DNA of 64,000 bases from an uncultured Phycisphaerae bacterium. Lineage in GTDB: Bacteria > Planctomycetota > Phycisphaerae > UBA1845 > Fen-1342. The position numbers and the translations under genes are program-made. Below, in pieces: positions 58,602 through 61,220 of this stretch. The stretch spans positions 1 through 64,000 of the forward strand of contig CALGJV010000006.1 of assembly GCA_937928595.1 (NCBI GenBank). Direction: 5' to 3'. Each line of letters opens with the position of its first letter. Within the stretch, counting starts at the first letter, position 1. The notes beneath the pieces were generated by a model. That model was not told the DNA's origin, did not search any database, and was given only the letters and a program-made list of their open reading frames with translations.

Positions 58602-59372
58602 TCAGCGCGGCGGCGGGGGCTTCAGCGCCCGATACAGGACCACGCCGCCGAAATTCATGCGCCGCAGTTGCACGTCCGTCAGGCCGGCGTCCTCCAGCCG
58701 GCGCACCATCGTCGCCGTGGTCTCGAACGTCCGGATCGATTGCGGCAGGTACCGATACGCGCCCGTGCGGTCGCGGCTCACGACCGTCGCCAGCCACGGG
58801 AGCACCGTATCGCAATACACGGCGTACGCCCAGCGCAGCACCGGGTTGGCCGGTTGCGCAAACTCGAGGATGACCACCCGCCCCCCGGGCCGCAGCACCC
58901 GGCTCAACTCGTTCAGGCCCGCCTGGAGATCGGCGAAGTTCCGCACACCGAAGGCGCAGCTCACGACATCGACCGCCGCGCTCGCCAGCGGCAGACGCAA
59001 CGCGTCCGCCCGCAGCACCTGCACCGGGACGCCCCCGGTCTCGAACGTCCCGGCCGCCAGCATCCCCGCGGCGAAGTCCACGCCGATCAGCCGCGCCGGC
59101 GCCGGCCGCCCGGCCGCGAACGCCCGCAGCATGTCGCCCGTGCCACAGCAGACGTCGAGCACGACGTCCGTGGGGCGCACGGCCGCGGCCGCGACGGTCG
59201 CGCGGCGCCAGGCCGCGTCGCGGCCGAACGTCGCGAGGCGGTTGACGCGTTCGTAGGTGGGAGCGATGGCGTCGAACATGGCCTCGACGCGGTGGGCCTT
59301 GTCCGGCTGCGCATGCGGATTGCGCAAGGTCTGCGCGTCCCAAGCGGGCGGATTGGAGCGCGACGGCGTCAT
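58602..59372 (-). CDS. menG: Demethylmenaquinone methyltransferase (MenG/UbiE family)
   Basis: 256 residues. SAM-dependent C-methylation in menaquinone (or ubiquinone) synthesis. N-terminal FDAIAPTYERVNRLATFGRD, the SAM motif VLDVCCGTGDM, DVVSCAFGVRNFADL and the C-terminal GVVLYRALKP are family signatures; the length is normal. Menaquinone is likelier in this group, but the sequence alone does not decide. Confidence 0.93.
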   Translation of the reverse strand: MTPSRSNPPAWDAQTLRNPHAQPDKAHRVEAMFDAIAPTYERVNRLATFGRDAAWRRATVAAAAVRPTDVVLDVCCGTGDMLRAFAAGRPAPARLIGVDFAAGMLAAGTFETGGVPVQVLRADALRLPLASAAVDVVSCAFGVRNFADLQAGLNELSRVLRPGGRVVILEFAQPANPVLRWAYAVYCDTVLPWLATVVSRDRTGAYRYLPQSIRTFETTATMVRRLEDAGLTDVQLRRMNFGGVVLYRALKPPPPR

Positions 59373-59474: not shown

Positions 59475-59518
59475 TAAAACAACAACGGGCGGTTCGTGCC
59501 GGATGGCCGACCGCCCGT
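59475..59518 (-). terminator. Intrinsic terminator of the candidate RNA
   Basis: Minus strand: ACGGGCGGT (59518-59510) pairs perfectly with ACCGCCCGT (59493-59485), loop of 16 nt, then TGTTGTTTTACG. The T tract on this strand only shows the direction of transcription. Confidence 0.75.
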
Positions 59519-59727
59519 CGTCTGGTTTCGGAAAGAATCCGCGATTGCCGGTGGGAGCGGTTTGCTGGAACCCTCTAGCAAGGTGGGTGGCCCGTGCTGC
59601 CCCGGCCACGCGCTCGGAGGCGCTTCCGTCGGGGACAAGTCATCCTGGCCTCCCGGGGTTCAGCATATCGGTTCGCGCAAACGAGTTCTCCCGGGTCGCA
59701 CAACGCAGAAATCCTTCCGAGACCTCT
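59475..59727 (-). ncRNA. Candidate structured non-coding RNA, 6S-like (unconfirmed)
   Basis: Minus strand. A TATACT -10 element (59739-59734) is followed at about 59727 by an RNA whose ends pair: residues from 59720-59704 (TCGGAAGGATTTCTGCG) pair with 59543-59528 (CGCGGATTCTTTCCGA) over some 15 bp with few defects. In between, an inner stem pairs TGCTG-AA-CCCCGG with CCGGGGCAGCA. A perfect 9-bp terminator stem with a T-rich tail (59518-59475) follows directly. Length about 200 nt, long closing stem and interior bulges recall 6S RNA, including ACCGATAT in the bulge region, but I cannot prove this. Confidence 0.5.
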
Positions 59728-60092
59728 ATCGGGAGTATACCGGGTCACAAGTCGACATGACGGAGAAAAACGTGTCGTTTGGGCGCACGGCGAGCAAGCC
59801 CCCTGCTCGTCGGTACTTGGCGACGACGCGCGGGCGTGCTTTTCGGCGCGCGCGGTTCGCGAAATGCGGTCGCGAAGGACTCTACGCACGGCTGGTCGGG
59901 GCTGAAACGCTTTGATGCGTGCCGGCTGTGAGCTTGCGCCGCGGCGCCGGTCCTCGGCGTCGGTCCGCGGTGCGAGTCCGGGCTCGGTCGCCGACCGACA
60001 GTCCGGGCGGCGCGGTGCCGCAACCGCCGCGATCCGAGCGAGTGCGGTTTTGTGGCTTTTTCACACGCTGAATCGGCTTTATTGGACGATAA

Positions 60093-61220
<1,128 letters not shown>

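Follow-up and report, generated by a model that had tools for sequence, protein, structure and literature searches.

A single 6S RNA gene in an uncultured Phycisphaerae bacterium

Introduction

6S RNA is a well-known bacterial RNA that mimics an open promoter and keeps RNA polymerase in check. The locus studied here, a structured segment on the minus strand in front of the gap gene of an uncultured Phycisphaerae bacterium, raises the question of whether such an RNA is encoded there, or whether the structure belongs to one of the neighbouring genes or to another kind of RNA. A 6S-like identity had been proposed from the sequence (the original prediction). All coordinates refer to the window, the whole 64,000-nucleotide stretch of DNA that was analysed. 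Taking the evidence together, the best explanation is almost certainly a single planctomycete (Phycisphaerae-related) 6S RNA gene (ssrS) on the minus strand, with a TATACT promoter and its own terminator.

Results

Covariance-model searches with the 6S family and the other Rfam models identified the element. The 6S model RF00013 matches positions 59532-59714 on the minus strand over its full length (model positions 1-187), with an E-value of 1.5e-7 in 951 nt and 1.4e-7 genome-wide, and this is the sole RF00013 match in the whole 3.69 Mb genome. The score of 44.6 bits lies 1.8 bits below the gathering cut-off of 46.4; at the default gathering threshold, Rfam reported nothing at the locus, and RF00013 appeared once E-value reporting was used. 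Close relatives score above the Rfam cut-off, and the arms of the structure covary (see below). The locus is a genuine 6S RNA gene, a further member of a known family, and the 6S-like reading was thus borne out. With 6S RNA/SsrS it shares, besides the full-length match, the closing stem, the central bubble, the apical stem, a length of ~185-200 nt and, judged by sequence, a probable free-standing gene; it differs in its score slightly below the gathering cut-off and in being G+C-rich. A CRISPR repeat-like match at 59941-59976 reached 14.5 bits where 42 are needed, and was rejected as a chance match.

The RNA itself occupies the following segment:
59524-59724, minus strand: 6S RNA body with closing stem, central bubble and apical stem (RF00013 match, fold z-score, covariation)

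As had been predicted, a long closing stem, an inner structured arm and the motif ACCGATAT are all present on this strand. In the closing stem, about 59724-59704 is paired with 59543-59524; ACCGATAT lies at 59672-59665. The single-sequence fold of the minus strand has a z-score of -3.74, and 1 of 200 dinucleotide shuffles was equally good; the plus strand folds less well (z = -2.10). A covariance model built from 23 family sequences, termed R1, matches the window at 59520-59728 on the minus strand.

The same number of family sequences (23) was aligned for the analysis of covariation, with a consensus of 47 pairs in 9 helices. Compensatory changes in the arms, which had been put forward as a check on the structure, were found: both sides have changed in 23 of the 47 pairs, compared to 9 in shuffled alignments, and 64 changed cells were observed versus 15.9 in the shuffles. 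Paired cells amount to 94.8% (88.8% when shuffled), and none of 500 shuffles, a control that ignores the relatedness of the sequences, reached any of the observed covariation values. When the partners were slid by 1-3 columns, pairing fell to 40-53%. Because this slid control collapses and many helices are involved, covariation by chance is very unlikely. The layout of closing stem, central bubble and apical stem is maintained by covariation.

A putative template for product RNA (pRNA) synthesis is located at the edge of the central bubble:
59667-59681, minus strand: predicted pRNA template UUUGCGCGAACCGAU (homology to E. coli U44, invariant CCG)

The predicted start, opposite the U at 59667, is homologous to U44 of E. 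coli 6S RNA, the pRNA start in that species (PMC8876501), and would yield a pRNA beginning 5'-AUCGGUUCGCGCAAA; the pRNA predicted from the central bubble reads 5'-AUCGGUUCGCGC. Over the template, GAACCGAUAU in the window compares with GAGCCGAUAU in E. coli, and the motif at the start, adjoined by A in both cases, is GAACCGAU in the window and GAGCCGAU in E. coli. The CCG of the template is invariant in 23 of 23 family sequences. Both the GG at predicted pRNA positions 4/5 and the A adjoining the start agree with characterised 6S RNAs; such a GG is described from E. coli, Aquifex and Rhodobacter (PMC8414754). Judged by sequence comparison, the bubble edge thus appears to carry a conserved, E. 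coli-like pRNA template, and the start motif resembles that of E. coli rather than that of Bacillus.

Two further segments could form a competing helix:
59656-59664, minus strand: GCUGAACCC, the distal 5' part of the central bubble, which would supply the 5' strand of a collapse helix (folding and alignment tests)
59564-59573, minus strand: GGGUUCCAGC, 3' strand of P2, the helix beside the bubble, which can swap to 59656-59664

When the template was blocked in folding calculations, most family sequences shifted to a helix between GCUGAACCC (59664-59656) and GGGUUCCAGC (59573-59564). In this calculation the pRNA start was misplaced for two genomes, G011 and G002, in which a CCG lies farther upstream; the alignment-based test is unaffected. 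A competing helix of 8-10 bp was predicted in 23 of 23 sequences, with shuffles as good in a fraction of at most 0.032 per sequence, and was absent from E. coli 6S RNA, as expected. Its compensatory changes are few (2 pairs, 3 cells) because the 3' strand is shared with P2 and hence is also constrained by P2. Bacillus 6S-1 and Aquifex 6S RNA are inferred to form a central bubble collapse helix (PMC8876501), and the folding predicts that the competing helix corresponds to it in position, unlike the E. coli type. The predicted complementarity of the distal 5' bubble to the 3' strand of P2 would be shared with Bacillus subtilis 6S-1 and Aquifex aeolicus; the predicted helix in the window differs from theirs in pairing GCUGAACCC with GGGUU-C-CAGC over 8-10 bp that are G+C-rich. 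In one family member (G007, locus L024, 6S core at 1501-1684), an altered opposite strand, GGUUUUAGC, is matched by the template, GCUAAAACC, as well as by the distal bubble, GCUAAAACC, so that the template helix and the competing helix change together in an apparent three-way covariation.

The boundaries of the gene and its neighbours are given by the following features:
59734-59739, minus strand: -10 element TATACT of the 6S gene (sequence and 22 of 23 family homologues)
59475-59522, minus strand: intrinsic terminator, a hairpin and a T tail with interruptions (fold; comparable hairpins in most homologues)
58602-59372, minus strand: ubiE-like methyltransferase gene, the next gene downstream, separate from the RNA (open reading frame)
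60201-61220, plus strand: gap (glyceraldehyde-3-phosphate dehydrogenase), a divergent, unrelated neighbour (open reading frame)

The TATACT element of the original prediction was found at 59739-59734, and transcription is predicted to start at about 59727-59729. Such a box precedes the 6S core by 18-68 nt in 22 of the 23 homologues, as TATACT in 21 and as TATAAT in one; no recognisable -35 box lies upstream of TATACT. The terminator hairpin (59522-59481) is G+C-rich and comprises 18 bp, and most family homologues likewise have, downstream of the 6S core, a G+C-rich hairpin and then a T-rich stretch. It had been described as a perfect terminator with a T tail; the hairpin and the tail stand, whereas 'perfect' does not, because the stem contains two one-base bulges, and the tail is interrupted. 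A generic promoter and terminator scan flagged neither element on the minus strand at the locus, owing to a weak -35 region and to breaks in the T run; conservation of the box and terminator among relatives is the better evidence. The expected lack of a reading frame was seen for the 6S core on the RNA strand, which no open frame crosses, each frame being stopped once. The conserved promoter box and terminator, together with the presence of gap beside the RNA in this genome only, argue for a free-standing, minus-strand RNA gene with its own promoter, as originally proposed, and against a leader of gap.

Could the structure instead be a leader at the 5' end of ubiE, which comes next on the same strand? 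That gene begins ~100 bp past the terminator, and within the short flanks examined, 8 of the 23 family loci (this one and seven others) have a UbiE homologue that follows the 6S RNA on the same strand, so a conserved 6S-ubiE gene order is possible. The terminator, however, stands between element and gene, the remaining homologues are without ubiE in the flanks examined, and a leader would account neither for the pRNA template nor for a 6S match that spans the whole model. Read-through into ubiE would also be compatible with a 6S gene, as E. coli ssrS precedes fau; the downstream neighbour itself differs between the two loci. We regard a ubiE leader as very unlikely.

From its position ~470 bp upstream of gap, the element could also be that gene's leader, another cis-regulatory element of it or an RNA antisense to the gap leader. 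The two are divergent and on opposite strands, however; it is the minus strand that carries the covarying structure, with a promoter box and a terminator belonging to the element itself. No gap gene was found within about 1.5 kb of the 6S RNA in the other 22 family loci. A gap leader, which had been named as an outcome that would speak against a 6S RNA, was rejected on the missing synteny and the opposite strand, and we give this reading hardly any credence. The original placement upstream of gap is correct for this genome but incidental, gap being a divergent neighbour here only. Elsewhere in the window, positions 1-2563 hold part of an rRNA operon, with a partial minus-strand 23S rRNA that is truncated at the edge of the window and preceded by two tRNAs.

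An RNA that is 6S-like but binds polymerase otherwise, such as the Ms1 RNA of Actinobacteria with core polymerase, would have an interrupted long hairpin of similar overall fold and belong to the same class of polymerase-binding RNAs. The Ms1 model (RF02566) does match the locus weakly, but its 10.3 bits (E 4.4) fall far short of the cut-off of 162; RF00013 has a lead of 34 bits and of seven orders of magnitude, and the pRNA template signature is retained. Ms1 was rejected on these scores, and a relative of it is exceedingly improbable here. A small coding gene or a chance structure has a negligible probability: the overlapping frames of 89 and 104 aa are long chance ORFs of G+C-rich sequence, most homologues have stops in all RNA-strand frames and indels that are not multiples of three, which led us to reject a coding gene, and the covariation far exceeds that of shuffles.

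The 6S RNA gene recurs in most of the family, a homologue being present in 23 of 27 genomes. A BLASTN search with the element recovered homologues from 18 additional family genomes; three genomes from other families gave weak, partial matches. RF00013 matches 19 of the 27, five of them above the cut-off and the best at 58.3 bits. Four more were found by BLASTN only; three of these match RF00013 over its full length under permissive filters (32.6-38.7 bits), and the fourth, G015, is matched by R1, whose training set includes it. The R1 matches in 23 of 27 family genomes are by construction.

Discussion

Membership in the 6S family is established by this analysis, and the mode of action can be outlined from what the family does. 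The TATACT promoter would drive transcription of the RNA on the minus strand up to the gene's own terminator, and the transcript would fold into a long hairpin with interruptions, in which the central bubble would mimic an open promoter. By analogy with other 6S RNAs, it should bind RNA polymerase with the housekeeping sigma factor and reduce transcription as growth slows. Once nucleotides are available again, the polymerase would use 59681-59667 as the template for a short pRNA (AUCGGUUCGCGC...). Its synthesis would open P2, allowing GGGUUCCAGC to re-pair with GCUGAACCC in the bubble, and the polymerase would be released; we infer both binding and release.

The locus assigns a global transcription regulator to a poorly studied lineage. 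It is also of modest use, as the 6S gene here goes unreported at the default Rfam threshold, and the cut-off conceals such genes. At the level of the order, R1 matches 91 of 114 genomes and RF00013 61, only 30 of those above the cut-off; in 46 of 46 genomes outside the family matched by both, the two models coincide in place. Annotation at the default threshold understates the spread of 6S RNA in the phylum. In a sample of 294 Planctomycetota genomes, RF00013 matches 129, with up to 86.9 bits, and yields no match in 165 under strict filters; R1, with 30 matches, is too narrow for the phylum.

We lean slightly towards the view that Planctomycetota broadly have 6S RNA, and that in the lineage of the window a pRNA start like that of E. 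coli may go together with a collapse-helix switch as in Bacillus/Aquifex. According to the passage of PMC5673643 that cites Wehner et al. 2014, 6S RNA has been taken as absent from some planctomycetes, a published screen having found none in two pirellulae. If true, a broad occurrence would run against the absence from some members as it is given in that passage. In the same order as the window, one genome (G057, contig C1) carries two 6S-like copies, at 1597033-1597242 and 1228682-1228892, which score 97.6 and 94.3 bits with R1 and recall the two 6S RNAs of Bacillus subtilis.
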